Assembly: GCA_947172415.1 (NCBI GenBank)
Contig: OX359192.1
Span: 7,390,401-7,454,400, forward strand
From: Chondrosia reniformis
Lineage: Eukaryota; Porifera; Demospongiae; Chondrillida; Chondrillidae
Length of the DNA: 64,000 nucleotides
Direction of reading: 5' to 3'
The notes under the pieces were generated by a model. The model was given only the letters and a program-made list of their open reading frames with translations. It was not told the origin of the DNA and searched no databases. Position 1 is the stretch's first letter, and every line of letters starts with the position of its first letter. Below, in pieces: positions 13,170 through 64,000 of the stretch. The position numbers were made by a program, and so were the translations under genes.

Positions 13170-14170
13170 TTAAGACAGTGTGCAGTGTTTTAATTAAGTG
13201 AAAAATAATAATATGAAATTCTCTTGCACAGTATACCATTTTGTTTGACAACTTGTTTTATGCATGAAAAATCTAAGAAATAAGAAACCAACTGAGCATA
13301 TATAATTATGTTATGTTCTACATATTATTTACTGAATGTACTTTACCATTAAATACACACTTTCAAAGAAAAGTAAAACTAATTATTGCTATATAGAGGA
13401 AATTACATTCTTTAGGAGGAATGTTTCTGTGTTGGTGATGCATGGTGGTGTCAAAAAAGTGCACCAAATAATTTATGAAGGTTAAAAATGATTTAGTTAA
13501 TGATTGGGTACAGTGTTGATTAGTGTGTAATGATGTCATCCCAAACAGCATCTAGGTGTGCATCCCTTGGTCCAATTTCACACATGGTGTGATCTTGATG
13601 TGGATTGCCTCCTTAACCTTCCTTCTTTTTTGTTTTGCTCCCTGTGAAGAACCGTGGCCTTGTCCCAGTCTATGTTGTGGAATGTGGTATGTGTATATGA
13701 ACATGGACCAAAGCATATCACTGGACCCCATAGACATCCAACCATCAATTAACACTCACAATTGATTTTTTTCATCTGGTGCATTTTTCACAATTCAACT
13801 AATGTCACTCTCTTGTTCTAAATAAGAAACCAACTGAGCATATATAATTATCTATGTTGCTGTGATCCAAGTTAATTATGTGCACATGAAGGGTGGTATA
13901 TCTAGAAACAGCTATCTGGACCAGTGGAGCAGAAATCTCAAGGGATGTGTCATGCATTTCCTTAGCTTCAAAGATAACCATATAGAGTTTTTGGAATATA
14001 TTAATCTCCCTCTCTTTCTCTCTCTATAATTAGATTCATAGACTCTGTTAAGTTTCTTTCTTACACAGGATACTCCAAATTCCTATTTCCTTTTCGACAG
14101 GCCATTGAGTTTACAGAAAGCCCCACTTTCATAGCTCAGTAAAACAACATAATTTCAAGTCACTTTTGAA
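13170..14170. other. Intergenic B-C and conserved 5' flank of C
   Basis: No gene seen. A segment of about 28 bp (AAGAAACCAACTGAGCATAT and on) occurs twice, near 13278 and near 13826. At about 13885-13925 there is a degenerate relative of the hammerhead-bearing unit found in D, G and I (GAAGGGTGG...AGAAACAGCTATCTGGACCAGTGG). A CT-rich run and a block shared with B, D and E precede the ATG. Confidence 0.5.
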
Positions 14171-17100: not shown

Positions 17101-20100
17101 GAGAGTTTGGAAAAGCAATATACAGTAATGCATTGAATACATCATTTCCTGGATTAACGGTAAGAATTATATATGCATTGCATTTTGTGTACAACAGGCA
17201 TCATTCTTTATTTACATACAGCCTTTATCCATGTGGGTAATTAATGTACTTTGTAATGACAAAATCCTATAGCTTGTTACAAACATTTGCACAGTATATG
17301 TTTGTAAACAATTTGCTATATATATATGTAATAATAGACTTAACATATTACACACATCACCATGAAAGAATATTCTTTTTCAAAGTAGCCATTGCTACAC
17401 ATATGTGTTTAATTGAATATTATCACAAAATTGGTTGAGCCATAGACAGCTGTTTAATCCTTATTATGATGGAATTTTCATTGCCCTCCTCAGGGGACAT
17501 GAGTGGGTAGGGGTAATATCCAGAGTTCAATGATTAATAGAAATAGATAGAAATAACAATTATGTTGGACAAATCAATATGAAATAATGTTATTCAGTGT
17601 AGTCAATGCCAAGACTCCTATACTCCTTTAGGGAAATTTTAAGCTACAAGAGAATGGAGATAGATTACCAGAGACATTACAGTTTTTTATTTACAGAAGA
17701 AACACAAGTAATAAAGGTACATTTATATAATAGCAATTTATAAAGTATATATATACATACGTATGTACCTAATATACACACACATATATACATCACAATA
17801 TAGTGAAACTATGCCTACCTATATTTATATATATAAGACCCTTCTGAATATGGCCATCTCATGAACCACCAATCCCCTATTTACATAATTATCTACTTGC
17901 TAAAATTAACTTCTGTGTTAAAACAGTGGAACCTCCATTAACGGACACCTCCCACACACTTGCGATAAAACGGACACTTTCGCAGGTCCCGTTCGAACGA
18001 TATCTGTTAATCTCTGTACAAAAAACCTCTAAAAACGGACACCTCTCTAACCCGTAAAGCGGACAACAAAATACTCCCCATTTGACCAACACAATACAAA
18101 AGAACCCCTGATAACGGACACTGCAGACGCTTGCGCTATTTTCTCGGACACTTGATTAGCACCAGTTTATTAAGAAAAAATTGCTATTCTATTTCTACGG
18201 CATGATAAGTTCTCGGAGTCTATCAATGTAGTCTTGTGTGCCATAAAATCTATATTTGCAAGGGATCTCCATGCCATATCCTGCGCCACAATTAACAGCA
18301 GCTCCAATAACTTCAACCGCGGCTTTATTAGTGCTTCTTTTCAGAAAGTGATCAGACGGTGCAATTGTGCGCAGTATGACTCTATCTATAAACTTAAACT
18401 TAAAACAAAAGCCTCTGAATAAAGGACACCCTCCATATAATGGACATATGGCTCTGTCCCGATGGCGTCCGTCTTAGAGAGGTTCCACTGTATATCAATG
18501 TATGAAACATCTTTTAAAATCTCGTTTCATACCCCATAAATGACCATTCTTGATATGAGTATATGTAGCAAGCCGGAGACAGGTGGTGTTGTAGCATAAC
18601 AGTATATAATCTCAGGTTTAATATGGCATGAAATCTATTTGAAACTTCTTGAACAGTCAGGTTTCAAAGGGTGCTCGAGTATTTAAATTTCACAGGTTTT
18701 AAATTTTAACAGTCCCTTTTCCTTCTTATTTATACATACTTTCATACCTTTTGAAACCTGCCAAAGGAACTTAAAATAGGTTTCATTCCCTCTGAAACCT
18801 GTGATTTGATCCTGTGACATTTCTTTTGGTGTCATTTATATTATAATTACCTGAGTACATAATATAAATCTTTAATCAAACCCCTGAATGGTGGCAGCTC
18901 CATATCAGGATGTGTCCTGTGTGCATACGTACATGGGGTTAAAATTTTGTTATTTGTGTTAGGAGATCTAATAAGAACACATTTTGGTGATTTTATTAAT
19001 GGTATTCTATCCGTATTTCCTGATCAAGCTCATCATGTTTTTCCAGGTAAGAAAGAACATTGTACACGTTGAGCAAAATGCATGTATATACATATGTACA
19101 TACTGAAATATATATATGCTTTCCTTCAATCTTCAATTAAGATGGGATCCCTAAAACGTTTGAGTATGAATATATAGCTCACTCTCTCTTTGGCATATAT
19201 TGCTTTCTTGCTGTGGCTGGAGTAGCATTTGCAGTAGCTTGTCTTATTTTCAATTTAGTCTTTAGAAAGAAAGCGTGAGTTTATAATTTGTTTTTCATAA
19301 ACCTGTGAATGCACATACATAGAAATTTAAATACGTAACATCTATAAATCACAAAATGAAATATAAATATATTTTCTATTTTTTGTAGGATCATACATCT
19401 GTCTGGTCCTAGCATGAATGTGGTCTTCATTATTGGAATCATTGCTCTTTACCTGCTAGTGATATTGTTTGGTATTGATGATGGATTGGTTTCCTTTACG
19501 GCAGCCAGTGGCCTCTGTCAGTTTAGGATCTGGGTTGCAGTGTTGGCCTTTTCACTTATCTATGGAGCCATACTGTCCAAGACATTTCGCATCTATTACA
19601 TCTTGCGTAAAGCCAGAAAGGGAAAGCCAAGTAAAAGTCAAAAGGTATAGTGCATTGAAACTTTTTGCAAAGGCACATTGGGACTAGGCAAAAGGTCACA
19701 CTGACTGAGTTTATGCAATTATTGAACTCAGGATTTGAAACTTTGAATCAGGAATCAGGCATTATTCTTATTTATGGAAATGATATTGTATACTGTCACA
19801 TAGTGACACATGTAATACATAAATCAGTATCATACCAGTGCAGTACATACCTAAACTATTATTTTATCTCCTTAACCAGACAATTCAAGAGTGGCATATG
19901 TTCATTTTGATTGGTGTTTTATTGGCCATTGATGTGGTATACCTTATTATTGTGACAGCAGTACCAGAAGCAATCCTGAGACTGGAAACACAATTAATAC
20001 CAACTGTAGTGAGTATTATGATATTCCCGGGCCCTTAGGAGATGTAATGTAGTGTTGTTTAATACATTGAAAAGCTAACTGTACCCTATCTTCAAGGGGG

Positions 20101-21883: not shown

Positions 21884-22861
21884 TTAAGACAGTGTGCAGT
21901 GTTTTAATTAAGTGAAAAATAATAATATGAAATTCTCTTGCACAGTATACCATTTTGTTTGACAACTTGTTTTATGCATGTTCTACATATTATTTACTGA
22001 ATGTAATTTACCATTAAACACACACTTTCAAAGAAAAGTAAAACTAATTAGTGCTATATAGAGGAAATTATACTCTTTAGGAGGAACGTTTCTGTGTTGG
22101 TGATGCATGGTGATGTCAAAAAAGTGCACCAAATAATTTATGAAGGTTAAAAATGATTTAGTTAATGAATGGGTACAGTGTTGATTAGTGTGTAATAATG
22201 TCATCTCAAACAACATCTAGGTGTGCATCCCCTGGTCCAATTTCACGCATGGTGTGATATTGATGTGGATTGCTTCCTTAACCTTCCTCCTTTTTTTGTT
22301 TTGTTCCCTGTGAAGAACCGTGGCCTTGTCCCAGTCTATGTACGTTGTGGAATGTGGTATGTGTATATGAACATGGACCAAACCATATCACTGGACCCCA
22401 TAGACATCCAACCATCAATTAACACTCACTATTGATTTTTTTCATCTGGTGCCTTTTTCACAATTCAACTAATGTCACTCTCTTGTTCTAAATAAGAAAC
22501 CAACTGAGCATATATAATTATCTATGTTGCTGTGATCCAAGTTAATTATGTGCACATGAAGGGTGGTATATCTAGAAACAGCTATCTGGACCAGTGGAGC
22601 AGAAATCTCAAGGAAGATTCTGGTTGGAAGGGATGTGTCATGCATTTCCTTAGCTTCAAAGATAACCATATAGAGTTTTTGGAATATATTAATCTCCCTC
22701 TCTTTCTCTCTCTATAATTAGATTCATAGACTCTGTTAAGTTTCTTTCCTACACAGGATACTCCAAATTCTATTTCCTTTTCGACAGGCCATTGAGCTTA
22801 CAGAAAGCCCCACTAGCTTTCATAGCTCAGTAAAACAAAATAATTTCAAGTCACTTTTGAA
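21884..22861. other. Intergenic C-D and conserved 5' flank of D
   Basis: No gene seen. It is homologous along its length to the B-C and D-E spacers, with small indels. A degenerate hammerhead-unit relative lies at about 22555-22600. The last 145 bp before the start codon match the flanks of B, C and E. Confidence 0.5.
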
Positions 22862-25800
22862 ATGCCTGGGAGCGTGTGTCTTCTGTTAGTACTACTTACT
22901 TTATCCTCAGTCAGCTGCCTGAAAAACTGTCAAAGTTGCGAAAGAGATACTTCGATGCTTAACTTGATGGTTCAGATTTCACAGAGCGAAAGAGATTTGA
23001 CCAGCTTCATCATCGCGCTGGAGGTAGCTCTGGATAGAATTAACAATAACTGCACCATACTACCTTGCTATCATTTAAGTCATTCGGAAATTATTGATCC
23101 TAAGGTAAGTTATAGATGAAGTATTATAGATTGACTATAGGCATTAAGATTATATGTTTACAATACATGATCAGTCATTAATGGTCGCTTCCATCAAGCA
23201 CACGTTATTGATGATATATACGTACCTAAAGTGTATACGTATGTATAAATTTACTAAGTATATAGATGTGTCTATACCTTTCTCCTAATTATAGTGTTCA
23301 GATAATCCGGCTGTCCTTGGATTCATAGAACAAGTTTCTAATAATTCTAAAGACATTCTTGCAATTCTAGGAGGATGTTCTGTATCAGTCCAGCCAGTCG
23401 CCAGTTTAGCTCACTATTGGAATCTTGTACAAGTATATACGTATAATAAACTATATAAACAATCCAAATTAACACCAAGGCATGCTCTGTGCATCTAAAG
23501 GGCCTATAGGAAGCTAAACCTATAGTGAGAATTTTGGACCAGTGTGGAAAGATACATGCATGTATAGGTATATACATTTACCTTAACGCTTTCTCTGTAT
23601 ATGCTCCTTCTTCTGTTAGAAAAGAATATGGCTTTTTAAAATACTTCATTACTCTATATAAACTATATATTAACTGCAATTCCCAAACATATTGAGTAGT
23701 TTACTTATAATCCTTAACTGGTGCTTATTGTTTAAATTTACAATCTTTAAGGCGATCTGTATTCAATTTAGCTCTGGAATATGCTAAAATATGTATTCAA
23801 TTTAGCTCTGGAATATGCTAAAATATGTATTCATGAAGTACAGCACTTCAGTTTGTTACAGAAGGAAGTTTTCAATAATCATTACAATTTTCTGTTTGAA
23901 ACCATTATTTAAAAACCATATAGAATAATTAATAGTTTGTAATCAGACCTCTAAGACTTAAGCTTTGCATGTATGTACATACAATCTTTGATCTTGTATA
24001 GATTATCTATAAGTTTAATTCCTTAATTAATTCATTCCTTCACTTATCGGCTGATGTTTATATTTCTTCAATTCAGTATATATACACATTATTCGCATAT
24101 TACATTGAAAATGTTTTCAGTCTAATAACTACATGCTGTTTCTGTATGTATGTGTATGCATGCAGCATCTGATCTACACTATGTATAGTGATGCTTGGGA
24201 ATTTGTTATTTAATTAGTTTTCCTGGAATGTGTCCTAATATGTATATAGAGATGATTATTTAATGTTATACATTGATTGTTTAGATTGCTATTGAGGCGT
24301 CTTCCCCTCGGTTATCAAACACAAGGGAATATCCCTTGTTTCTAAGGGCAGTCCCTCCAGATGACAACATTAAACCTGGAATAGTGGGACTAATGAATTA
24401 CTATGGATGGGAACATATCGCAATAATCTCACAAGAGGAAGACCTTTTCACATTTGTAAGTTCTTAATATAAGTAGATTATTAGACATTGTAGTTTAACT
24501 TACCCCATATATTAAGTGTTTTGCATACATACCTAATAGTATATGCAGGTATAGAATTGCATGGTATTTCCTCTGTACTTCATATTGAAAGTTTGAACTA
24601 TATTTGGCTGGTTTATTCACTGTGTCCACCCATTCAAATTATGCATATGTGTAGCTATATGTACATACGTATATATACAATTTTATAGATATTCATCTAT
24701 AATACTTGCACATATATATATATACAGTGAAAGTTACAATATACTAAGGTAATCACATATACAGTACAAGTTACAATATATATATAGTTTGAATAAATGA
24801 CAATTAATATTTGACAAAGTGGCTATTACTATCCTTCCTTGTCTTCCAAAGTGCAGCCCACTTAGTCTTTTAATTTAATGGATACATATATATAAATTAT
24901 AAAAGTATGCCATTAAATATTATATATGTATATACATATATATGCCTCTCTCATATTTATATTCATATATATATATATATATGATTACCTTAGTATATTG
25001 TAACTTGTACTGTATATATATACCAGCTTGCGCAATCGTAACTTTGAATTCTTCATTATATCTTGATTATTTTGCTCATTTAATTAAGCAAAACTTCGCC
25101 AGACGTTTCTTATACACATGTACCATGATATATGTTGATTTCACAGTTATCGGACAAACTGAAAATTTTTATCAATATAACACATGGTTTGCATATAAAT
25201 TTCCCATAGGTTTTCTATAGTCCTATGGCCTTTTATATGCAAACTTTGTCCTCCGTTTTCTAAGAAACGGAGGCCTAAATCAAAAATCCCTTAATTTAAA
25301 ATGAGTTTTATACCCTAAACTTTATGATGATATGCCTATTTTGTTTCTAGGTCCTTTCTTGGAGCCATATGAATTATTTAATTATTTATTTATATTATAT
25401 TATATTATATTATATTATATTAGATTATATTAGATTACCTTAGTATATTGTAACTTGCACTGTATATAATAATTCATATGGCTCCATATGTATACAGTGC
25501 AAGTTACAATCAGCAACGAGGCGGTGACGTTTTTGCAACGTCACAAGATTCACTACGAGAGGTGTTGGTGACGCACAAGAGAAACATCATAATACATCAT
25601 CAGATTGCGCAATCGTAACCTTAAATTCTTCATTATATCTTGATTATTTTGCTCATTTAATTAAGTCAAACTTCGCCAGACGTTTCCTATGCACATGTAC
25701 CATGATATATGTTAGTTTCACAGTTATCTGACAAATTGAATTTAATATAACACATGAAGGATTCACAGAAGATCAAGATAAAGAAAAAGACAAAGACTCC

Positions 25801-28800
25801 CAGGATCACTGATGAAGGGTGGAATTCCCAGAAACGGCTGTCTGACCCAGTGGAGAAGAAGATGAAAGAAGGAAGAAAAGACTCCTGTATCTTCATCTAA
25901 AGCTCTCTTTAGGTTTAGTTCCCCTATAGGCTCTTTTTACAGAATAGGCATATAGCATGTAGGAAAATGGTATCTTAGATTTTTCATGGTTTGAATATAA
26001 ATTTTCCATAGGTTTTCTATAGTCCTATGGCCTTTTATATGCAAACTTTGTCCTCCGTTTTCTAACAAACGGAGGCCTAAATAAGAAATCCCTTAATTTC
26101 AAACGAGTTTTATACCCTATACTTTACGATGATATGCCCATTTTGTTTCTAGATCCTTTCTTGGAGCCATATGAATTATTTAATTACATTATTTATATTA
26201 TATTATATTATCATATTTAGATTACCTTAGTATATTGTAACTTGCACTGTATATATATACATTATTTATTTAAAATAACTTCTGAATTGCTGAATGCCTG
26301 TAGAAATATTAATTTAAAATTAAAATTAATAAAATAAAAATTAATTTAATTAAACGACTTACAATTAATATATATATATATAAACTAGACAAGAGATGCA
26401 TTATCAGAAGATTTGAAAAGAAACAATTTACAAGTGATACATTCTGTCAGCTTTCCAACCAATCAAAATCCACAAGGAGTTATAAACAGCCTTCAGGTAT
26501 ATACGTAAAGAATGCTCATATATACACAATCTTTTGTAGATACGTATATACATATACCTTTATATAAACCACTATTTTGTACTTAAATATATATACATAC
26601 AGGCATCAAGTGGTCGGGTGATTTTTCTAAACTGCTATGAAACCTATGCTATAGAAATCTTATGTCAGGTAATATACTGAAGCTGCATGGATTTAGTGTA
26701 GTTAGTGTTCTGTGTTCTTTATTCAAATTGATGGTCATATAATATATGTATACTGCCTTTGCCTACTACATATAATTATATATATTAATATTAATGTTGT
26801 ATGTAATGAATTATTTAGTAACTGCAAGTACTATGCTAAATATATGTCCTTCTGAAGTGTGATCTAGCTGGTCAATAAGGATTGTCTCAAAGGTTGTATG
26901 CACATTATATAACTAATAATATATGTATACATTAGAAGAATACACTGTATAACTGTATGAATTTAGTTGAACTTGTAACACTTTGTCCACAGGCTGAGTC
27001 CTTAGGAATGACATCTCCAAATTATGCCTGGATAACATTTGGGTGGTATGTTGACAATTTCTGGGAACAGACACCCAACTCCAATGGGAAAGCGTACACT
27101 CCATTTTCTTGCACCAGAGAACAGAGACAATCTATAGTCAATCAAATGATACTCATTAACCACTACCCAAGATATGACAAGAAAGCTAAAGGAGTAGCGA
27201 TTGGAAACCTGGTTAGTGCAAGATGACACCTAGTAACTACAGTGTACATACACATAGTTCAATAGGTAAATTATATGTATTTACATAATATGTTAGACAT
27301 TAGAGAGTTTTTGGGGCAAGTATGCTGAAAAGAAAAATCAATATTATAGTAACAGTACAAAGAATACTGACCAGAATGACCTAGCCTTATTTGCATATGA
27401 TGCTACATGGCTTGCAGCTAAAGCACTCCATAAAACTGATCAAATGAAAACCATCAGTCTAGAGACGTTTTCTCCAGGATTTTCAGATAACAGTAATAGA
27501 GAGTTTGGAAAAGCAATATACAGTAATGCATTGAATACATCATTTCCTGGATTAACGGTAAGAATTATAAATGCATTGCATTTTGTGTACAACAGGCATC
27601 ATTCCTTATTTACATACAGCCTTTATCCATGTGGGTAATTAATGTACTTTGTAATGACAAAATCCTATAGCTTGTTACAAACATATGCACAGTATATATA
27701 CGTTTGTAAACAATTTACTATATACGTATGTAATAATAGACTTAACATATTACACACATCACCATGAAAGAATATTCTTTTTCAAAGTAGCCATATATGT
27801 GTTTAATTGTATATTATCACAAAATTGGTTGAGCCATAGACAGCTGTTTAATCCTTATTATGATGGAATTTTCATTGCCCTCCTCACGGGACATGAGTGG
27901 GTAGGGGTAATATCCAGAGTTCAATGATTGATAGAAATAACAATTATGTTGGACAAATCAATATGAAATAATGTTATTCAGTGTAGTCAATGCCAAGACT
28001 CCTATACTCCTTTAGGGAAATTTTAAGCTACAAGAGAATGGAGATAGATTACCAGAGACATTACAGTTTTTTATTTACAGAAGAAACACAAGTAATAAAG
28101 GTACATTATATATAATAGCAATTTATAAAGTATATATATACATACGTATGTACCTAATATACACACACATACGTATATACATCACAATACAGTGAAAGTA
28201 TGCCTACCTATATACAGTGCAAGTTACAATATACTAAGGTAATCTAAATAAATAAATAATATAATATAATATAATTAAATAATTCATATGGCTCCAAGAA
28301 AGGACCTAGAAACAAAATGGGCATATCATCATAAAGTATAGGGTATAAAACTCGTTTTAAATTAAGGGATTTTTCATTTAGGCCTCTGTTTGTTAGAAAA
28401 CGTAGGACAAAGTCTGCATATAAAATGCCATAGGACTATAGAAAACCTATTGGAAATTTATATGCAAACCATGTGTTATATTAATAAAAAATTTCAATTT
28501 GTCAGATAACTGTGAAATCAACATATATATATCATGGTACATGTGTATAAGAAACGTCTGGCGAAGTGTTGCTTAATTAAATGAGTAAAATAATCAAAAT
28601 ATAATGAAGAATTCAAGGTTACGATTGCGCAATCTGATGATGTATTATGATGTTTCTCTTGTGCGTCACCAACACCTCTCGTATGTCGCTCCGTAAATAT
28701 TTAGTGTAAATTTTAACAGTCCTCTTTCCTTCTTATTTTATACATACTTTCATACCTTTTGAAACCTGCCAAAGGAACTTCAAATCCCTAGCTTCAAACC

Positions 28801-31473
28801 CCTGAATGGTGGCAGCTCATGCAATATCAGGATGTGTCCTGTGTGCATACGTACATGGGATTAAAATTTTGTTATTTGTGTTAGGATCCGGAGATCTAAT
28901 AAGAACACATTTTGGTGATTTTATTAATGGTATTCTATCCGTATTTCCTGATCAAGCTCATCATGTTTTTCCAGGTAAGAGAGAACACTGTACACGTTGA
29001 GCAAAATGGATGTACGTATGTACATACTGAAATATATGTATGCTTTCCTTCAATCTTCAATTAAGATGGGGTCCCTAAAACGTTTGAGTATGAATATATA
29101 GCTCACTCTCTCTTTGGCATATATTGCTTTCTTGCTGTGGTTGGAGTAGCATTTGCAGTAGCTTGTCTTATTTTCAATTTAGTCTTTAGAAAGAAAATGT
29201 GAGTTTATAATTTATTTTTCATAAACTTGTGCATGCACCTGCATAGAAATTCAAATATGTAACATTTATAAATCACAAAATGAAATGGAAATATATTTTC
29301 TATTTTTTTTAGGATCATACATCTGTCTGGTCCTAGCATGAATGTGGTCTTCATTATTGGAATCATTACTCTATACCTGCTAGTAATATTGTTTGGTATT
29401 GATGATGGATTGGTTTCCTTTACGGCAGCCAGTGGTCTCTGTCAGTTTAGGATCTGGGTTGCAGTGTTGGCCTTTTCACTTATCTATGGAGCCATACTGT
29501 CCAAGACATTTCGCATCTATTACGTCTTGCGTAAAGCTAGAAGGGGAAAGCCAAGTACAAGTCAAAAGGTATAGTGCAACTTTTTGTGAAGGCACATTGA
29601 GACTAGGCAAAAGGTCACACTGACTGAGTTTATGCAATTATTGATCTCAGGATTTGAAACTTTGAGAACATTTGAATCAGGAATCAGGAGTATTACTCTT
29701 ATTTATGGAAATGATACTGTATACTGTCGCATAATGACACATGTAATACCTACATACATATATCAGTATCATACCAGTGCAGTACATACCTAAACTATTA
29801 TTTTATCTCCTTGATCAGACAATTCAAGACTGGCATATGTTCATTTTGATTGGTGTTTTATTGGCCATTGATGTGGTATACCTCCTTATTGTGACAGCAG
29901 TACCAGAAGCAATCCTGAGACTGGAAACACAATTAATACCAACTGTAGTGAGTATTATGATATTCCCGGCCCCTTAGGAGATGGAATGTAGTGTTGTTTA
30001 ATACATTGAAAAGCTAACTGTACCCTATCTTCAAGGGGGAAATGAAGACCAACTGCATGGGTCACAAATGTTGAGAACTAAGCCTTAACATTTTAATCAA
30101 CTCTATTTCTATATGTATGTTCCAAAGAATAAAAATATAATAGTTAAAAATGCATAAAAACATGCTATTAATTTAAAACATTATTTCAAATATATTGCTT
30201 TAAATAATATGTATACACGTACAAAATATTGAAACTAATGTATGGAATAATGTTATTAGGAATATCTATGTTTAATTATGCATGTATTGCAATAACATCT
30301 ATGTAGCAAACAATTGTCTCACTTATTCAGAATGGAGAACTTCCATCAAAGTACAGTGTCTGCACATCTACTGGCAGTAGCATCTGGATACCCATCCTTC
30401 TTGCATATAAAGGAGTGGAACTCATTTTTAGTCTCTTTTTTGCATTTGAAACACGTAAAATTAGAGTGAAAGAATTGAATGACTCAAAAATGATTGTCTT
30501 TTCAGTGTACTCCATTGTGTTAGCTGTGATAGCTATAACTCCAATCATGTTTCTCTTGAGTGACAAAGTTAACATTGTGTATGGAATAGTAGGTGCTGTG
30601 TGTTTGAGCACTTGTACAGCACTTCTTGGCTTCAATTTTATACCAAAAGTAAGTATTCAGTATTCAGCAACACTTATGTTAGAATTCTATATACACATTT
30701 TTGCATTCTATTGTTTTTTACTGCAAACACTGCAGTTAGTGACCATATATATACGAATATACACTTCTGTCATTGTTTATACACATAATGTACAGTACCA
30801 AAAGTTTTGACCTTCAGTTATACGTAATAACCTTTGTTGCAGATGGTACATTTAGTTAAAGATCCTAGTGGAGAAAGAAGTCTAGATTTTGGTAACATTA
30901 TTGATAAATGGACCAGCAAACAAACTGCAAAGAGAACTTCTAATCCAGATAATTTCACTTCTAGAATGCCAGTAAGTTTGTACATATAACAGAATACCTA
31001 TGTGCTAACATCAATTTGGTATATATACGTATATAGACCTGGAGTGAAGATGGAGGGGCAAGACTAAGCAATGCCTCAGGGGCTGGAAAAGTAGACTTTG
31101 GTGTGTGTGCTCTAGAAACATGACTGCATGAGATACCACTTTTCATACATTGCATCTGCAATGTATAAAACGTTTCTCCATAATTCACCATTATATTCAT
31201 GCACAAGCAATAGTTAGCCCAGAGCTAAAAAGTCACTATCAATCAAGAAGAGTCCCTTCCTTATACACATATATTAATGCTGTGCGGAATCTATCAATCA
31301 ATCCATCCATACATCCATTATACGCTTCATTAAATGTGAGTATATACGTATGTACATTAGAGGATTCTTTAGACAGAAAGGGAAGCACGGATTCATTGGC
31401 TGCTGAAGCAATGAAGACTAAGAGTCTAGCTCCAATTCCTGAAGTTCAAGAAGTAAATGTAGCATCATTGTAA
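22862..31473 (+). CDS. Receptor D: GABA-B-like class C GPCR, intact, transposon-swollen introns
   Basis: Exons: 22862-23104, 23295-23432, 24285-24455, 26389-26496, 26603-26668, 26993-27211, 27297-27557, 28016-28100, 28885-28974, 29066-29198, 29313-29568, 29819-29947, 30331-30648, 30843-30971, 31037-31100, 31361-31473. Spliced length 2523 nt, 840 aa; exon 9 is 6 nt longer than in C (an extra GlySer before GDLIRTHFG). No internal stop seen. Domain order is as in C. Intron 3 is 1.9 kb against about 0.3 kb in B and C, because of a composite insertion at about 24725-26249. Intron 8 holds an inverted partial copy of the same family. D and E share a tandem duplication in intron 2 and an insertion in intron 3, so they are sisters there, while exon 13 shares a variant with A. 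Confidence 0.9.
24725..25012. mobile_element. Short-TIR element, CAGTGaAAGTTACAAT family, in intron 3 of D
   Basis: A 30-bp terminus at 24725-24754 (CAGTGAAAGTTACAATATAC then TAAGGTAATC) is matched in inverted form at 24983-25012. A second, partial terminus lies at 24762-24777. TA-rich sequence flanks both ends. A reverse-complement copy of 24629-24975, including host intron sequence outside the TIR, occurs in intron 3 of receptor I (about 55091-55434). Confidence 0.6.
25757..25984 (+). mobile_element. About 230-bp unit with candidate hammerhead ribozyme, in D intron 3
   Basis: The unit interrupts a sequence that is continuous in the neighbouring copy (CACATGGTTTGCATATAAAT near 25185). CATG flanks it on both sides (25753-25756 and 25985-25988), a probable 4-bp target duplication. 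The same unit occurs on the minus strand in G (46127-46361) and three times in I. It has no open frame of note. The ribozyme-like core is at 25803-25848. Confidence 0.65.
25803..25848 (+). ncRNA. Candidate type I hammerhead ribozyme core
   Basis: Seen on the + strand: CTGATGA at 25809-25815, GGG/CCC stem II (25817-25819 with 25827-25829) and GAAA at 25831-25834. A two-pair stem III closes with GTC at 25840-25842, so the predicted cleavage site is after 25842. Stem I is GGATCA (25803-25808) with TGACCC (25843-25848), with one A-C mismatch. The A-A apposition at the base of stem II is not canonical, so activity is uncertain. Hammerheads are known in Penelope-like elements and retrozymes of animals. 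Confidence 0.5.
28215..28683. mobile_element. Inverted, truncated copy of the CAGTGCAAGTTACAAT element in intron 8 of D
   Basis: It begins with the 30-bp TIR at 28215-28244 and then runs as the reverse complement of the element at 25495-26249, without the nested unit. It stops near 28683, where homology to the copy in intron 3 ends, and no second TIR is present. The insertion or an associated deletion removed part of the intron that is conserved in A, B and C. Confidence 0.65.
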
Positions 31474-31818: not shown

Positions 31819-32779
31819 TTAAGACAGTGTGCAGTGTTTTAATTAAGTGAAAAATAATAATATGAAATTCTCTTGCACAGTATACCATTTTGTTTGACAA
31901 CTTGTTTTATGCATGTTCTACATATTATTTACTGAATGTACTTTACCATTAAATACACACTTTCAAAGAAAAGTAAAACTAATTACTGCTATATAGAGGA
32001 GATTACATTCTTTAGGAGGAATGTTTCTGTGTTGGTGATGCATGGTGGTGTCAAAAACGTGCACCAAATAATTTATGAAGGTTAAAAATGATTTAGTTAA
32101 TGAGTGTATGTGTAGAGTGTTGATTAGTGGTGTAATGATGTCATCCCAAACAGCCTCTAGGTGTGCATCCCCTGGTCCAATTTCACACATGGTGTGATCT
32201 TGATGTGGATTGCCTCCTTAACCTTCCTTCTTTTTTTGTTTTGCTCCCTGTGAAGAACCGTGGCCTTGTCCCAGTCTATGTACGTTGTGGAATGTGGTAT
32301 GTGTATATGAACATGGACCAAACCATATCACTGGACCCCATAGACATCCAACCATCAATTAACACTCACAATTGATTTTTTTCATCTGGTGCATTTTTCA
32401 CAATTCAACTAATGTCACCCTCTTGTTCTAAATAAGAAACCAACTGAGCATATATAATTATCTATGTTGCTGTGATCCAAGTTAATTATGTGCACATGAA
32501 GGGTGGTATATCTAGAAACAGCTATCTGGACCAGTGGAGCAGAAATCTCAAGGAAGATTCTGGTTGGAAGGGATGTGTCATGCATTTCCTTAGCTTAAAA
32601 GGGAATATATTAATCTCCCTCTCTTTCTCTCTCTATAATTAGATTCATAGACTCTGTTAAGTTTCTTTCCTACACAGGACACTCCAAATTCCCATTTCCT
32701 TTTCGACAGGCCATTGAGCTTACAGAAAGCCCCACTTTCATACCTCAGTAAAACAACATAATTTCAAGTCACTTTTGAA
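31819..32779. other. Intergenic D-E and conserved 5' flank of E
   Basis: No gene seen. It matches the C-D spacer closely, with a short deletion just before the CT-rich run. A degenerate hammerhead-unit relative lies at about 32497-32540. The block before the start codon is shared with B, C and D. Confidence 0.5.
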
Positions 32780-45094: not shown

Positions 45095-46739
45095 ATGAAA
45101 GAAGTTACAGGGCTGCTAGCCCTCACAGTTTTGCTTTTAGTGATCCCTGGATTTGGATATTCCCAAAAGATTTGTGATGAGTGCAGGGGAAACTGGACAA
45201 CTCTAAATCTGATGGTTTTGGTCTCTCAGACCAGACCAACAGATCTGTCCACCTACATTCCGGGTATGAAAGTGGCTTTAGATGCTATCAATAGTGACTG
45301 CTCTATATTGCCCTGCTACTATATATTTGAATCATACTGAACTTATTGATCCACAGGTAAGGTACTGGAAGGATATGTAGTTAACTGTGCACTCTGTTTA
45401 ATGGGTCAATAACTTTGCTTTTAGTGTTCAGATATTCCAGGTGTGAGGGGCTTCATTGAACATGTGACCAATCCTTCACTTAATGAGATCATGATAATTG
45501 GGGCTGATTGCTCAGTTTCTACTCAACCAGTTGCCAGCCTTTCCCCTTTTTGGAATCTTGTACAGGTAATATGATATGTATGTAGTACAACAGCATATTG
45601 GTTGATGATGTTTATCTTGTTTGTTTTCTTTCTAAACCCTCACTTATACATATTCAATGTCATAGATATGTCACTGGGTGTACTAACACATCTTTTTTTT
45701 CCCCAGATATCAACAGTTTCCACTTCACCTAGATTATCAATTGAAAAGGAATTTCCTTATTTTTTGCGGCTTGTTGGTCCAGACAGTTCAATAAACCCAG
45801 GTTTAGTTGAGTTGATGACATATTTCAAATGGGAACACTTAGCAATAATTACCCAAGAAGAAGATATCTTTACTTTTGTAAGGAAGATAAGTAGAAAATC
45901 AGAGCAGGGAGCTTGTTGTGGCCCATAGTGATTCCATGGGTGCAATGTATAGTACATGCGTATGACTGCCTATCCTTCTATTACAAGGAGTATTAGAGAG
46001 AATATTATGTACATATAAAGAAGTATTACACTCCTCTTTGTAATTCTAGAATGCTACTTCAAACACATTATTTTAACTGGTATACATAAACATACATGTA
46101 TATACGTACGTAGGTACATTTTCATGAAAAATCAAAAGATACCATTTTCCTATAGCTACATGCTGTATGCCTATTCTGTAAAAGAGCCTATAGGGGAACT
46201 AAACCTGAAGAGAGCTTTGGATACAGGAGTCTTTTCTTCTTTCTTTTCTCTTCTTTCATCTTCTCCACTGGGTCAGACAGCCGTTTCTGGGAATTCCACC
46301 CTTCATCAGTGATCCTGGGAGTCTTTGTCTTTTTCTTTATCTTGATCTTCTGTGAATCCTTGGCATATCATGCATATCTTGATAAACAACAAATGCTTAC
46401 ACCCACTTTAATGGAGTTCTTAATATATATAGACAAGAAATGATTTACTGAGTGCCCATATTATATTCCTCAATGCCTATCATGAATATGGTCTGGAAAT
46501 CTTATGTCAGGTAATCTGTTATTGTAGCAAACCTATCTGTTCTTTATATTATCTATATATATGTATTAACCTTTTAGTTTGTATGCCACACAATATCAAC
46601 ATATATGTGTTTACATCTATCCTTAATCTTAGAGGAATCTTTAGATAAAAAAGAAAGCACCGAGTCAGTGGCTGCTGAACCAGAGAAAACTAAAAGTCTA
46701 GCTCCAATTCCTGAAGTTCAAGATGTAGCATCATTGTAA
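45095..46739 (+). pseudogene. Receptor G: broken 5' half of a subfamily-3 receptor fused to the last exon of E
   Basis: Exon 1 45095-45356, exon 2 45425-45565, exon 3 45707-45877 and a fused exon 4/5 at 46433-46510 match gene I. Exon 1 has a 4-nt insertion near its end (TATATATTTG against TATTTG in I), which shifts the frame. A deletion of about 270 bp joined the start of exon 4 to exon 5, in frame by itself (TRNDLLSAHIIFLNAYHEYG). Past about 46577 the sequence switches to intron 15 of E, followed by a copy of its last exon (46633-46739), whose phase does not match exon 5. There are no exons 6-14, hence no membrane domain. G is a breakpoint relic of the 7.9-kb tandem duplication. A soluble ligand-domain fragment is conceivable only if the frameshift is bypassed. 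Confidence 0.85.
46127..46361 (-). mobile_element. Hammerhead-bearing unit in intron 3 of G
   Basis: The same unit as in D (25757-25984), in the opposite orientation relative to the host gene. The candidate ribozyme core lies at 46270-46315 on the minus strand: CTGATGA, GGG/CCC stem II, GAAAC, GTC. Stem I has one mismatch. No coding capacity. Confidence 0.65.
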
Positions 46740-53009: not shown

Positions 53010-56000
53010 ATGAAAGAAGTTACAGGGCTGCTAGCCCTCACAGTTTTGCTTTTAGTGATCCCTGGATTTGGATATTCCCAAAAGATTTGTGATGAGTGTA
53101 GGGGAAACTGGACAACACTAAATCTGATGGTTTTGGTCTCTCAGACCAGACCAACAGATCTGTCCACCTACATTCCAGGTATGAAAGTGGCTTTAGATGC
53201 TATCAATAGTGACTGCTCTATATTGCCCTGCTACTATTTGAATCATACTGAACTTATTGATCCACAGGTAAGGTACTGGAAGGATACGTATGTAGTTAAC
53301 TGTGCACTCTGTTTAATGGGCCAATAACTTTGTTTTTAGTGTTCAGATATTCCAGGTGTGAGAGGCTTCATTGAACATGTGACCAATCCTTCACTTAATG
53401 AGATCATGATAATTGGGGCTGATTGCTCAGTTTCTACTCAACCAGTTGCCAGCCTTTCCCCTTTTTGGAATCTTGTACAGGTAATATGATATGTATGTAG
53501 TACAACAGCATATTGGTTGATGATGTTTATCTTGTTTGTTTTCTTTCTTAACCCTCACTTATACATATTCAATGTCATAGATATGTCACTGGATGTACTA
53601 ACACATCTTTATTTTTCCCAGATATCAACAGTTTCCACTTCACCTAGATTATCAATTGAAAAGGAATTTCCTTATTTTTTGCGGCTTGTTGGTCCAGACA
53701 GTTCAATAAACCCAGGTTTAGTTGAGTTGATGACATATTTCAAATGGGAACACTTAGCAATAATTACCCAAGAAGAAGATATCTTTACTTTTGTAAGGAA
53801 GATAAGTAGAAAATCAGAGCAGGGAGCTTGTTGTGGCCCATAGTGATTCCATGGGTGCAATGTATAGTACATGCGTATGACTGCCTATCCTTCTATTACA
53901 AGGAGTATTAGAGAGAATATTATGTACATATAAAGAAGTATTACACTTCTCTTTTTAATTCTAGAATGCTACTTCAAACACATTATTTTAACTGGTATAC
54001 ATAAACATACATGTATATACGTACGTAGGTGCATTTTCATGAAAAATCTAAGATACCATTTTCCTATAGCTACATGCTATATGCCTATTCTGTAAAAGAG
54101 CCTATAGGGGAACTAAACCTGAAGAGAGCTTTGGATACAGGAATCTTTTCTTCCTTCTTTTCCCTTCTTTCATCTTCTTCTCCACTGGATCAGACAGACG
54201 TTTCTGGGAATTCCACCCTTCATCAGTGATCCTGGGAGTCTTTGTCTTTTTCTTTATCTTGATCTTCTGTGAATCCTCCATGAAAAATCTAAGATACCAT
54301 TTTCCTACATGCTATATGCCTATTCTGTAAAAAGAGCCTATAGGGGAACTAAACCTAAAGAGAGCTTTAGATGAAGATACAGTAGTCTTTTCTTCCTTCT
54401 TTTCCCTTCTTTCATCTTCTTCTCCCCTGGGTCAGACAGCCGTTTCTGGGAATTCCACCCTTCATCAGTGATCCTGGGAGTCTTTGTCTTTTTTCTTTAT
54501 CTTGATCTTCTGTGAATCCTTGGCTCACTATGCTAAATCTAGGGGCCTTATATACACTATTTTGGCGCCAAAAGTTAAATAAGGTGTTAACTAAGACACA
54601 TGATGAAATTTAATTTTATGAAAGGAATGTAGGTCCAATTAACTTTTATGAATTAATTATAAATCTATTAGTAATCTTGCTTGTACAGGTAAAACAGACT
54701 CAGCATAACTATAGACACAAGTAGGACATATTACGTAAGTCTACCCTTAGGTCTTCTAGTAGTAACATTTCTTTGGAGGTGGGGTAACACAATATGGGGT
54801 AACACAAGACAGTCCTTAAGCATACTAGCTACTTTTTGCTTATACTTGATTCTAACTAGAGGCTGCCGGGATAGGAAGGTTTTAAAGGTTGATTTTAGCT
54901 TAAAGTATTTGTAACCCTGCTTAATAAGCCTACTAGCCTGAAAACTGGAGAAGTCACTACATATTCTAGAATACCTAATTAGTTGTGAAATAAAGACACC
55001 ATAGGCTGGGGTATTAGGAATATTACTATCTAAATGGGGGAAATTTACTATATCAAAGTTAAAGTCCTCTCGCTTATCATATACTTTGGGTATGAATATA
55101 AATATGAGAGAGGCATATATATGTATATACATATATAATATTTAATGGCATACTTTTATAATTTATATATATGTACATTAGTATCCATTAAATTAAAAGA
55201 CTAAGTGGGCTGCACTTTGGAAGATAAGGAAGGATAGTAATAGCCACTTTGTCAAATATTAATTGTCATTTATTAAAACTATATATATATTGTAATTTGT
55301 ACTGTATATGTGATTACCTTAGTATATTGTAACTTTCACTGTATATATATATATGTGCAAGTATTATAGATGAATATCTATAAAATTGTGTATATATGTA
55401 TGTACATATAGCTACACATATGCATAATTTGAATGGGTACGTAGGTACATTTTCATGAAAAATCTAAGATACCATTTTCCTATAGCTACATGCTATATGC
55501 CTATTCTGTAAAAGAGCCTATAGGGGAACTAAACCTGAAGAGAGCTTTGGATACAGGAGTCTTTTCTTCTTTCTTTTCCCTTCTTTCATCTTCTTCTCCA
55601 CTGGATCAGACAGACGTTTCTGGGAATTCCACCCTTCATCAGTGATCCTGGGAGTCTTTGTCTTTTTCTCTATCTTGATCTTCTGTGAATCCTTGGCATA
55701 TCATGCATATCTTGATAAACAACAAATGCTTACACCCACTTTAATGGAGTTCTTAATATATATAGACAAGAAATGATTTACTGAAATATTTAGAGGAACA
55801 AGGTTTGCATGGAATTCACTCAAGTAGCTTTCCAACTGGTGGCAATCCTCAGGATACTGTTCTTAATTTAAAGGTACAGTATGGTATGTGTATAATGTGT
55901 TTTCTATCCATGTGTTAAACAAGTGCACATTCCATAAATTACAGACAAACACATATGTATGCTAAAACATAACATTGGAAGTAGTATAATTTCATTTCTG

Positions 56001-60006: not shown

Positions 60007-60187
60007 TAAAGATGGAATATTAGCTGTTATTATTATTGCACACTGCCATCTCATCCAGCAGCTGGCAGTTGCCACTCAGAAGGGGAACGCGATGTCCATC
60101 ATGTCAACAATGAACTAAACAAATTTATATTATTATTATTATTTATCCATTATCCATTATCCATTGTAAATTTAAATTTTATGTATC

Positions 60188-60224
<37 letters not shown>

Positions 60225-60260
60225 TATATAATAATAATAATACCAGAAACCATGAAGTTT
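59483..60260. repeat. 3' flank of I with AAT microsatellites
   Basis: No convincing gene. (AAT)n runs at about 59969-60005 and 60190-60240, with an ATT run and a triple TTATCCA word between (60140-60165). The boundary to the satellite follows at once. Confidence 0.6.
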
Positions 60261-60271
60261 ATTTGTAATCC

Positions 60272-62650
60272 AATGAAGTCGAGAAGTCTCGATTGACATT
60301 TAGTCACTCCAAATTCACAACCCGATTTTGACCCAATGAAGTCGAGGAGTCTCGACTAACAATTAGTCACTCCAAATTCACAACCCGGGTTTCACCAAAT
60401 GAAGTCGAGAAGTCTCGATTGACATTTAGTCGCTCCAAATTCGCAACCCGAGTTTGACGAAATGAAGTCGAGAAGCCTCGACTGACATTTAGTCGCTCCA
60501 AATTCACAACCCGATTTTGACCCAATGAAGTCGAGAAGTCTCGACTAACATTTAGTCACTCCAAATTCACAACCCGGGTTTCACCAAATGAAGTCGAGAA
60601 GTCTCGATTGACATTTAATCACTCCAAATTCACAACCCGATTTTGACCCAATGAAGTCGAGAAGTCTCGACTAACATTTAGTCGCTCCAAATTAACAACC
60701 CGGATTTCACCAAATGAAGTCGAGAAGTCTCGACTAACATTTAGTCACTCCAAATTCACAACCCGGATTTTACCGAATGAGATCGAGTGGCTTCGATCAA
60801 CAATTAGTCACTCCAAATTCATAACCCGGATTTTACCGAATGAGATCGAGTGGCTTCGATCAACAATTAGTCACTCCAAATTCATAACCCGGATTTTACC
60901 GAATGAGATCGAGTGGCTTCGATCAACAATTAGACACTCCAAATTCATAACCCGAGTTAGACCCAATGAAGTCGAGAAGTTCCGATTGACATTTAGTCAC
61001 TCCAAATTCACAACCCGGATTTTACCGAATGAGATCGAGTGGCTTCGATCAACAATTAGTCACTCCAAATTCACAACCCGGATTTCACCAAATGAAGTCG
61101 AGAAGTCTCGATTGACATTTAGTCACTCCAAATTCACAACCCGGATTTTACCGAATGAGATCGAGTGGCTTCGATGAACAATTAGTCACTCCAAATTCAC
61201 AACCCGGATTTCACCAAATGAAGTCGAGAAGTCTCGATTGACATTTAGTCACTCCAAATTCACAACCCGATTTTGACCCAATGAAGTCGAGAAGTCTCGA
61301 CTAACATTTAGTCGCTCCAAATTAACAACCCGGATTTCACCAAATGAAGTCGAGAAGTCTCGACTAACATTTAGTCACTCCAAATTCACAACCCGGATTT
61401 TACCGAATGAGATCGAGTGGCTTCGATCAACAATTAGTCACTCCAAATTCACAACCCGGATTTCACCAAATGAAGTCGAGAAGTCTCGATTGACATTTAG
61501 TCACTCCAAATTCACAACCCGGATTTTACCGAATGAGATCGAGTGGCTTCGATGAACAATTAGTCACTCCAAATTCACAACCCGGATTTCACCAAATGAA
61601 GTCGAGAAGTCTCGATTGACATTTAGTCACTCCAAATTCACAACCCGATTTTGACCCAATGAAGTCGAGAAGTCTCGACTAACATTTAGTCGCTCCAAAT
61701 TAACAACCCGGATTTCACCAAATGAAGTCGAGAAGTCTCGACTAACATTTAGTCACTCCAAATTCACAACCCGGATTTTACCGAATGAGATCGAGTGGCT
61801 TCGATCAACAATTAGTCACTCCAAATTCACAACCCGGATTTCACCAAATGAAGTCGAGAAGTCTCGATTGACATTTAATCACTCCAAATTCACAACCCGA
61901 TTTTGACCCAATGAAGTCGAGAAGTCTCGACTAACATTTAGTCACTCCAAATTCACAACCCGGATGTCACCAAATGAAGTCGAGAAGTCTCGACTAACAT
62001 TTAGTCACTCCAAATTCACAACCCGGATTTTACCGAATGAGATCGAGTGGCTTCGATCAACAATTAGTCACTCCAAATTCATAACCCGGATTTTACCGAA
62101 TGAGATCGAGTGGCTTCGATCAACAATTAGTCACTCCAAATTCATAACCCGGATTTTACCGAATGAGATCGAGTGGCTTCGATCAACAATTAGAAACTCC
62201 AAATTCATAACCCGAGTTAGACCCAATGAAGTCGAGAAGTTCCGATTGACATTTAGTCTCTCCAAATTCACAACCCGGATTTTACCGAATGAGATCGAGT
62301 GGCTTCGATCAACAATTAGTCACTCCAAATTCACAACCCGGATTTCACCAAATGAAGTCGAGAAGTCTCGATTGACATTTAGTCACTCCAAATTTACAAT
62401 CCCGATTTTACCGAATGAGATCGAGTGGCTTCGATCAACAATTAGTCACTCCAAATTCACAACCCGATTTTGACCCAATGAAGTCGAGAAGTCTCGACTA
62501 ACATTTAGTCACTCCAAATTCACAACCCGGATTTCACCAAATGAAGTCGAGAAGTCTCGATTGACATTTAGTCACTCCAAATTCACAACCCGGATTTTAC
62601 CGAATGAGATCGAGTGGCTTCGATCAACAATTAGTCACTCCAAATTTGTA
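60272..62650. repeat. 63-bp satellite, about 38 units, with higher-order structure
   Basis: Unit of 63 bp, starting AATGAAGTCGAGAAGTCTCG and ending near the next AATGAAG. Two main forms alternate: form 1 with TCGAGAAGTCTCGA (an inverted repeat with 6-bp arms) and form 2 with GATCGAGTGGCTTCGATC. Blocks recur at 378 bp (6 units; 61141 and 61519) and at 1260 bp (20 units; 60781 and 62041), so the array grew by block duplication. As 63 is a multiple of three, some stretches give a repetitive open frame (21-residue repeat SHSKFTTRILPNEIEWLRST), but form 1 variants with GATTTTGACCC break it. This is best read as satellite DNA, not a gene. Confidence 0.9.
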
Positions 62651-63695
62651 ATCCTACCTTTACCGGATTTGATCGAAAATGCTTCGATCCATCACTAGGT
62701 CGCTCCAAATTTCCATGTCGACTTTTGCCGGATATAGGTGACCACTAAATTTTAGTCGACAAGCTCATCCGGAGAAGGCCGAATGACTAAAATTTTATGT
62801 TGACTACAGAAGGGGAACTCCTTCCTTTTCAGTCATTCGAGAAATGTCGGATACAAAAATTTGAAAGTGACCCCCAAATTTCCGATTTTTTTTCGACGTG
62901 TTAATAAATGTGTTAATTACTCAATTATCACAACACTTTTAAAGTAATTGAAAATTGAATCTTGTTAGTTATGAAATTGGCTTCATTTTGAATGGTAATA
63001 GTAGCTGGTAAAGACTTAGTTGGTCTAAATATATCGAGATGCAGTTGAGACTTTTTCCGTCTTCTTGTCACCCCCTTGCGCGCCACTGTGTTCTTGCCTA
63101 CTATAAGGGGGAGCATGGTGAGCGAAATCCTACGGGCCAAATTTACGATTCGAGAAAGTCCGGTGAAGGGCAGTTGGCCTCGTATGAATGCTCCTAAGCC
63201 TTATTGGGGTAATCCGAGAATTGCCGAGTAGTGATACCGAAGTGACTAGTAGTGGCCATGTGACCGAAGGAATGCAATTGCAGATTACACGCAAATTCCA
63301 CAGCTAACGGTTAGGGCTTGGACCAAGCTACAGTTGAATACCTGAAGCTTGGCAAGTTTGTTTCACATGAGATTCGAGTGACCGAAAGTTGGGATGAAAG
63401 TTCCTTGATTTCCAGATTTTCTTGCAGGCTCTCCTTGATTGAAGGGGCCTCGGGCAAAATCGATGAAATCTCAAAAAGCCTGGGAACAGTCGATGGTTGG
63501 CACGATTGGCCTCAGGGCTGAACGAGGGCATACTTTAGTACTGTGTCCCGTGGAGATTCGGCCATAGCCTTCTGTAGCTAGGGCTTGTGGTGAATTTGAA
63601 TGACATTCGAGATTTCACGGAATTTGTTTCACATTCGAGAGAGAAGGCTTTGGCCAGGCAGATCGATTGAATACCAGTGAATGACTGGCATTTTT
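62651..63695. other. Degenerate satellite edge, then unannotated unique-looking DNA
   Basis: The first 100 bp or so hold diverged relatives of the 63-bp unit. Beyond that GC content is visibly higher than in the receptor region, with many TCGA and GATTCGA words. Short open frames (for example 63318-63521) show no recognisable domain. Nothing further can be supported. Confidence 0.4.
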
Positions 63696-64000
63696 CGGTC
63701 TGAAGTTACGATTGTATGAAGGATCGAATCGAATGAGAGTCACTCGAGAATCAATGGCAAGTTTTGAAGCAAAATAGTCATTGGCTTGTGGTGCAATAAT
63801 TGCAATTGCAGTTCTGCCAAGTTTGATCGGTCTAAAGTTACGATTCTATGAAGGATCGAATCGAATGAGAGTCACTCGAGAACCAATGGCAGTTTTGAAG
63901 CAAAATAGTCATTGGCTTGTGGTGCAATAATTGCAATTGCAGTCCTGCCAAGTTTGATCGGTCTAAAGTTACGATTCTATGAAGGATCGAAACGTATGAG
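63696..64000. repeat. 131-132-bp tandem repeat running off the window
   Basis: Units begin CGGTCTGAAGTTACGATT at 63696 and CGGTCTAAAGTTACGATT at 63828 and 63959 (periods 132 and 131 bp); the third is cut by the window end. Each contains GGATCGAATCGAATGAGAGT and CAATAATTGCAATTGCAG. Confidence 0.85.

Follow-up and report, generated by a model that had tools for sequence, protein, structure and literature searches.

The repeat unit and its hammerhead-like motif

The window, by which we mean the whole 64-kb stretch of DNA analysed here, carries pieces of a class C receptor gene on the plus strand (ANF_receptor at 24285-24467 and 27297-27638, 7tm_3 at 29284-29574 and 30307-30810) and several families of repeats. 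A 300-bp stretch occurs five times on the plus strand (at 2038, 10615, 19339, 29263 and 36920, in steps of 7.7-9.9 kb), the fourth copy together with class C receptor pieces, which makes a tandem array of receptor genes likely. The window also contains a 63-bp satellite with a 126-bp higher order (60146-62646) and the start of a 131-bp tandem array (63695-64000).

Five copies of a hammerhead-like motif had been listed for the window in the initial annotation (D, G and three in I, the latter distinguished here by their start positions), and all five were found again at the same coordinates and on the same strands (Table 1). Each consists of CTGATGA, AGGG-TGGAATT-CCCA, GAAAC, a run of four bases, GTC and a stem I partner of six positions, and the core CUGANGA ... 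GAAA ... cut-site triplet is present in all of them. Stem I of D, G and I(54429), GGATCA/TGACCC, has five of six pairs and an A·C mismatch. The pairing of TGATCC with GGATCA, which had been said to restore a perfect stem I, indeed gives six of six pairs in I(54187) and I(55603), where GTCT replaces GGCT ahead of GTC. As also annotated, D has the sense orientation, since it sits between the receptor pieces on the plus strand. The pattern CTGATGAN{4,30}GAAA matched five times in the window as compared to 1.59 ± 1.30 times in shuffled sequences (3 of 100 shuffles reached five), but the five matches count as one event because all are copies of one repeat, and the evidence against chance at the level of the window is modest.

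The motif is frequent in the genome (117.4 Mb in 15 contigs searched). Its exact 34-base form, with A or G allowed at one place, matched 1174 times versus 0 times when reversed, and the loose pattern CTGANGAN{4,20}GAAACN{2,8}GTC gave 2523 matches versus 137 for the backwards pattern. Translation table 4 suits the mitochondrial contig of this genome, with arginine at a conserved cox1 position; Ciona was dropped as the host on this ground, and a sponge is a possible host. For the analyses below, 65 motif matches were listed, comprising 46 of the window family, nine of family B and eight of family C (both described below) and those in L027 and L042. One copy was listed twice (L032 at 2515 is L081 at 415), and hence the 51 rows used for conservation represent 50 copies, the 26 rows of low identity represent 25, and the 45 rows of alignment A2 represent 44. 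Alignment A1 (16 rows) omits L041, and A2 omits L044, L054, L059, L064, L065 and L084.

The motif lies in a repeat unit, for which a length of about 235 bp had been given. The unit itself stood, with lengths of 245 bp in the full element L021 (from GCCAAGGATTC to TTTTTCATG), 232 bp in D and a 242-bp period, according to TRF, in the tandem pair at 54038-54524, the one place in the window where the family forms a tandem pair. Among 53 motif-spanning matches, 22 started at unit positions 1-6, 27 ended at 244-246, and nine continued up into the element by more than 30 bp; these shares describe loci L001-L008 and L043-L084 and are not genome-wide, because the loci were chosen by similarity or by motif. 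Copy D is flanked by AATATAACACATG and GTTTG, with CATG at both of its ends. Since its host repeat is also present without the unit (the empty site in Table 1), D is a clean insertion.

Table 1 Repeat-unit copies and associated features of the window. R1 is a model built from families B and C
Feature	Position	Strand	Basis
Hammerhead-like motif of D, GGATCA/TGACCC	25803..25848	+	15.7 bits with R1
Solo terminal-repeat unit, copy D, 232 bp	25757..25988	+	Unit positions 4-245 at 95.5%
Empty site, inverted paralogue of the host repeat of D, without unit	28180..28720	-	MAFFT, 25501-26260 aligned to the reverse complement of the empty site
Unit copy G; motif 46270-46315	46123..46364	-	Unit positions 1-245 at 90.9%; R1 15.7 bits
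Tandem pair, second unit; motif 54187-54232 (TGATCC form)	54038..54277	-	Unit positions 5-245 at 92.7%; R1 12.4 bits
Tandem pair, first unit, joined to the 3' end of the element; motif 54429-54474	54279..54524	-	Unit positions 1-245 at 99.2%; R1 15.7 bits
3' untranslated part of the element	54525..54733	-	Whole stretch at 99.6% to the element
Truncated element copy; residues 871-997, C-terminal end of the reverse transcriptase frame	54734..55096	-	94.5% to the 997-aa protein by tblastn
Unit copy; motif 55603-55648 (TGATCC form)	55454..55697	-	Unit positions 1-245 at 92.4%; R1 12.4 bits

The Penelope-like carrier element

In two elements, L021 and L023, an intact open frame of 997 amino acids is flanked by the motif on either side, with 3501 and 3533 bp between motifs, and both elements show the organisation of pseudo-LTRs and tandem copies. 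A third copy, L022, is shortened and has an open frame of 627 amino acids and the motif once. The link to Penelope-like elements proposed in the initial annotation was thus borne out, as the unit directly flanks a frame with GIY-YIG and reverse transcriptase in tandem copies. We conclude that a Penelope-like element of high copy number has this unit as its terminal repeat (pseudo-LTR), and that the unit often occurs solo. A SINE or MITE had been considered as the identity of the unit and was dropped, since the unit flanks a Penelope-like frame.

GIY-YIG was found at residues 126-159 of the 997-aa protein with E 2e-4 and 21.9 bits, which is below the Pfam cut-off of 22.6, and at E ≤ 0.1 Pfam listed GIY-YIG alone for the whole protein and no reverse transcriptase. 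The C-terminal 254 amino acids contain YRYIDDLL and matched RVT_1 with 18.3 bits (cut-off 29.6) and RdRP_1 with 19.8 bits (cut-off 23.9), both under the cut-off. When the reverse transcriptase tail alone was compared with Pfam and PDB, no useful match was obtained, nor was one for the 254-aa C-terminal piece against PDB, and no relative of the protein was found in viral contigs. The linker between the two domains contains the single C.C of the protein, CEC at residue 419. The Naiad group is reportedly described by Craig et al. in 2021 as Penelope-like elements with an N-terminal endonuclease and the order GIY-YIG, CxC linker, reverse transcriptase, which we take to be the order of the 997-aa frame. 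By this domain order and the CxC linker we call the element Naiad-like, a safer word than Naiad.

In the window, TATATAAG is located at 54547-54554 on the minus strand, 30 bp ahead of the unit start, and is a putative promoter. With the 3' end of the element as a query (54560-55000, minus strand), 16 of the 40 matches scored, out of 691 candidates, had an identical score and 96% identity to the window copy, which suggests recent spread.

Sister families and the hammerhead model

Among the matches listed on C1:0.52-6.03 Mb, we found two families of motifs with well-paired stems. Family B has the form GCCATA-CTGATGA-GTCC-TAATAA-GGAC-GAAAC-AGCT-GTC-TATGGC and family C the form ACCACA-CTGATGA-GCCC-AAATGA-GGGC-GAAAC-AGCT-GTC-TGTGGT, both with variants. 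Their stem II patterns matched the genome 94 (B) and 143 (C) times, versus 0 and 0 for the backwards patterns, and the 143 matches of C include a third form, family E (L087, L088), whose stem I is palindromic (TCCTAG/CTAGGA), whose stem II is GCCC/GGGC and whose stem III hairpin is longer. Tandem copies are found for family B, at 352-355 bp, and for family C, at 359-363 bp. In L086, a tandem pair of family B with ATG repeats at the unit borders is followed by an inverse piece of the window family's unit. A further hammerhead-like form, CTGATGA-AGACC-TAAG-GGTC-GAAACATTTGGTC, lies on the plus strand of L027 at 3875; it lacks a clear stem I and gave no Rfam match.

The covariance search proposed in the initial annotation separated these families from the window copies, for which it gave one half of the outcome named there as refuting the idea. 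The Rfam model RF00163 (Hammerhead_1) scored above the gathering score in five of the seven sister loci tested (L025, L026, L028, L036 and L038, but not L027 and L042), whereas no hammerhead model passed its threshold anywhere in the 64-kb window, and none was listed for 25700-26000 even at E ≤ 10. The assignment to the hammerhead class therefore holds, as type I by Rfam, for the related motifs of the same genome. In the alignment of B and C (16 rows, 12 distinct), 95.8% of the cells were paired, and the covariation score was 0.326 versus 0.210 for shuffled alignments, a value reached in 0 of 500 shuffles. There was no excess of pairs changed on both sides (3 versus 2.6, 293 of 500 shuffles) or of pair types (8 versus 10.1), and the covariation signal is in substance one difference between the two families at three pairs. 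Judged by their sequences, B and C are Rfam-grade type I hammerheads.

We scored the window with R1. Copies D, G and I(54429) reached 15.7 bits and the two TGATCC copies 12.4 bits, with rough E-values of 0.029 to 0.3. R1 gave a higher score, 23.6 bits, to three decayed relics of family B on the minus strand (638-687, 17437-17486 and 27831-27880), in which stem II, AAACAGCTGTC and the 3' stem I strand are kept and CTGATGA is gone; one other place scored 10.5 bits. The window family shares with B and C the core, the GTC, GAAAC(A/G)GCTGTC and the six-position stem I, and differs from them at the base of stem II. A type I hammerhead expects a paired stem II including its first pair, 10.1-11.1. The A·A at this place, which had been pointed out as a weakness, is present in all five window copies, and the RF00163 type requires a pair there. 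Over 50 distinct copies of the family, we counted 45 with A·A, four with A-U (one via a deletion) and one with A·G, so that the A·A is old in the window family. Neither their scores nor the base of stem II allow the window copies to be counted as members of the RF00163 ribozyme family. A literature search on positions 10.1/11.1 and on sponge hammerheads returned no direct answer.

The alignment of the window family (45 rows, 31 distinct) had 90.6% of the cells paired versus 90.3% after shuffling and a covariation of 0.141 versus 0.132, which 91 of 500 shuffles reached and which is no excess. In copies below 88% identity (25 copies), the motif positions outside the search pattern were conserved to 0.838, compared with 0.829 for the 5' flank and 0.615 and 0.773 for the 3' parts, giving no clear sign of selection on the motif. 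Three old relics of the motif region of the window family lie on the plus strand at 13886-13934, 22556-22604 and 32496-32544 (82% over 49 bp) and are repeated with the receptor gene array.

Monomer folds were predicted as well, and the hammerhead was the best fold for no sequence, B and C included; we discarded this test as uninformative, since sister family B, too, favours another monomer fold. In the older copies, stem III is the palindrome ACAGCTGT, and two motifs can therefore share a stem III of 8 bp. In the predicted dimers, the double hammerhead was the best fold for family C and for one old-form sequence of the window family (GGGTCA...TGGCCC, L058), and for B it was near the best (-31.9 versus -34.7 kcal/mol). 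The young form was predicted to have -18.9 versus -26.5 kcal/mol for its best fold, the TGATCC form -17.3 versus -31.2, L051 -20.3 versus -27.9 and the A-U form L080 -21.1 versus -28.5 kcal/mol. The window copies are therefore among the weaker ones, and the element spread all the same. From these comparisons, they are best classed as degenerate relatives of the type I hammerhead, located in the terminal repeat of a Naiad-like element.

Possible cleavage and comparison with known systems

RNA cut by the motif and copied back might leave insertions that begin at the base after the cut, unit position 90. In an unselected sample (C1 to the end of the listed motif matches), 25 of the 38 listed copies of the unit's 3' side had an adjoining motif match when compared by eye. 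The other 13 comprised nine full-length copies with changes in the motif, one internal deletion, two starts at position 83 and one at position 90, i.e. two of the three truncations were at 83 and not at the cut. Through the genome, we counted copies in which none of the five bases ahead of the start agrees with the unit, and obtained 42 raw starts at position 90 versus six at 76, three at 83, two at 97 and one at 98. Sorted by eye, the 42 rows included six resembling one-base deletions, two resembling one-base insertions, nine from one 25-bp tandem array, five possible stem III deletions and three possible TGATGA-CCC joins; the remaining 17 were clean and had 11 distinct five-letter flanks. 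The same cleaning reduced the controls at 76 and 83 from six to four and from three to two, and left two at 97 and one at 98.

After correction for base composition and for the frequency of the anchors in 50 sampled copies, starts at the cut site were about five times commoner than the pooled controls predict (11 versus 2.3 expected; Poisson P 2.5e-5, conditional binomial 6e-4) and exceeded the strongest control alone (3.9 expected, P 0.002), with the caveats that the rows were cleaned by eye once they had been seen, that the anchors differ, that TG microhomology could help and that equal flanks may be later duplicates. Four of the 11 flanks precede TGACC and seven TGGCC, and since both occur, a single truncated ancestor is unlikely. 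The preference for the old form is a trend only (TGGCC in 7 of 11 versus 5 of 17 in the full-length sample, P 0.12). The excess is a possible trace of cutting in life, and we treat it as a lead.

Our preferred reading, which we hold with some confidence, is that the unit carries a degenerate type I hammerhead of the dimer type in a Naiad-like terminal repeat, that the motif may have cut RNA in some copies, and that the young form is probably slow, protein-dependent or dead. The dimer would form from two motifs that share the 8-bp stem III, whether these lie in tandem on a single RNA or on separate RNAs. The RNA of the element would start at the unit start behind the TATA box and copying at the unit end TTTTTCATG, by likeness to the internal initiation reported for the Anolis element PAc (PMC11167929); initiation in the first unit would then give a solo unit and initiation in the last one a long copy. 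At least in some copies, the motif may have cut the element RNA after GTC, and copying of the cut RNA may have given the insertions beginning at TGACC or TGGCC. In favour of this reading, three pairs are altered on both sides between B and C. The hammerhead was probably active in older relatives and is weak or dead in the window, where the young form, to judge from the predicted folds, has probably lost much of the fold and is slow, dependent on the element protein, or dead. It is rather doubtful, if worth stating, that Naiad-like elements carry a dimer-type hammerhead which works despite the A·A, perhaps helped by protein, and cuts RNA in life, the copied-back cut RNA starting at the cut site.

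The motif could instead be a plain relic, a hammerhead descendant that in the window family has long been without cutting, while the element spreads without it and the cut-site starts reflect microhomology or chance. The A·A in old and young copies alike agrees with this, as does the fact that the poorly folding young form is the near-identical, widespread one; moreover, CATG stands at both ends of D, and three of the 11 distinct cut-site flanks end in CA before TG. However, the TG control at unit position 98 gave a single match, eight flanks remain without the three CA flanks (P(≥8) 0.002 for 2.3 expected), and the double hammerhead is predicted for one old-form sequence just as well as for family C, and we regard a plain relic as unlikely. 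A more distant prospect still is the full original reading, in which the window copies are competent and cut their own RNA, including the host pre-mRNA at D. They have the complete core with GTC, D is sense-oriented between pieces of a receptor gene, and, as the PAc experiments in PMC11167929 are described there, the PAc hammerhead cuts only in the presence of protein, so that a weak fold need not mean inactivity. The copies nevertheless lack an Rfam match in the window, score only 12.4-15.7 bits with R1 and have a poor predicted dimer fold, and the putative cutting of host pre-mRNA by D is no more than possible. The least probable account, which we consider very improbable, makes the solo units retrozymes that spread via circular RNAs from hammerhead-cut tandems with the Naiad-like enzyme as helper. 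It would fit the tandem pair of the window, the tandems of sister families B and C and the size of animal retrozymes, given in the section of PMC7229834 concerned as 170-400 nt, with 220-240 bp in a coral. Yet the ends of the unit are fixed and away from the cut site, they are accounted for by a linear RNA that runs from the TATA box as far as the end of the unit, and no run of about 242 bp was present among the matches listed on C1:0.52-6.03 Mb.

The preferred reading given above can be set beside several known systems. The Naiad group, as reportedly described by Craig et al. in 2021, shares with this element the order of GIY-YIG, CxC linker and reverse transcriptase, the pseudo-LTRs and the tandem copies. 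Naiad-group elements reportedly lack canonical hammerhead motifs. Unlike them, the element described here has a non-canonical hammerhead in its terminal repeat, and the sister families found elsewhere in the genome are canonical; Naiad and hammerhead appeared together in none of the literature matches listed. If Naiad-like elements do carry hammerheads, the ribozyme would have a wider range in this class than existing descriptions give it.

Minimal hammerheads of canonical Penelope-like elements were reportedly described by Cervera and de la Pena in 2014. Those treated in the relevant parts of PMC6155905 and PMC11167929 are likewise of type I, with a very short stem III, and located in the pseudo-LTR. 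In these accounts, the canonical elements have the endonuclease at the other end of the protein, and the A·A at the base of stem II belongs to the present family. In L021, about 250 bp separate the motif from the frame that follows it, whereas it overlaps the start codon in PAc, as outlined in PMC11167929; the same outline states that cleavage of PAc occurred only with protein present and was not needed for insertion in vitro. The dimeric newt-type hammerheads, in the part of PMC6155905 devoted to them, resemble the window family in a stem III that is too short alone and extended in the dimer, but in the window family the dimer action is a prediction from folding.

Animal non-LTR retrozymes, as summarized in PMC7229834, consist of short tandem units with type I hammerheads, and families B and C fit this description well. 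Frame-less hammerhead tandems of 170-400 bp, a retrozyme trait, are found in B and C, while the window family shows one tandem pair in the window and, unlike the retrozymes of that summary, has its unit in common with an element carrying a frame of its own. Penelope-like elements are named in PMC7229834, in the statement by Cervera and de la Pena on this point, as strong candidate movers of animal retrozymes. Here, the hammerheads of retrozyme-like tandems and of a Penelope-like element share the stretch GAAACAGCTGTC within one genome, and the mover idea is therefore testable in one animal. The map of 5' ends, in turn, offers a route to ribozyme activity in life from the genome sequence alone.
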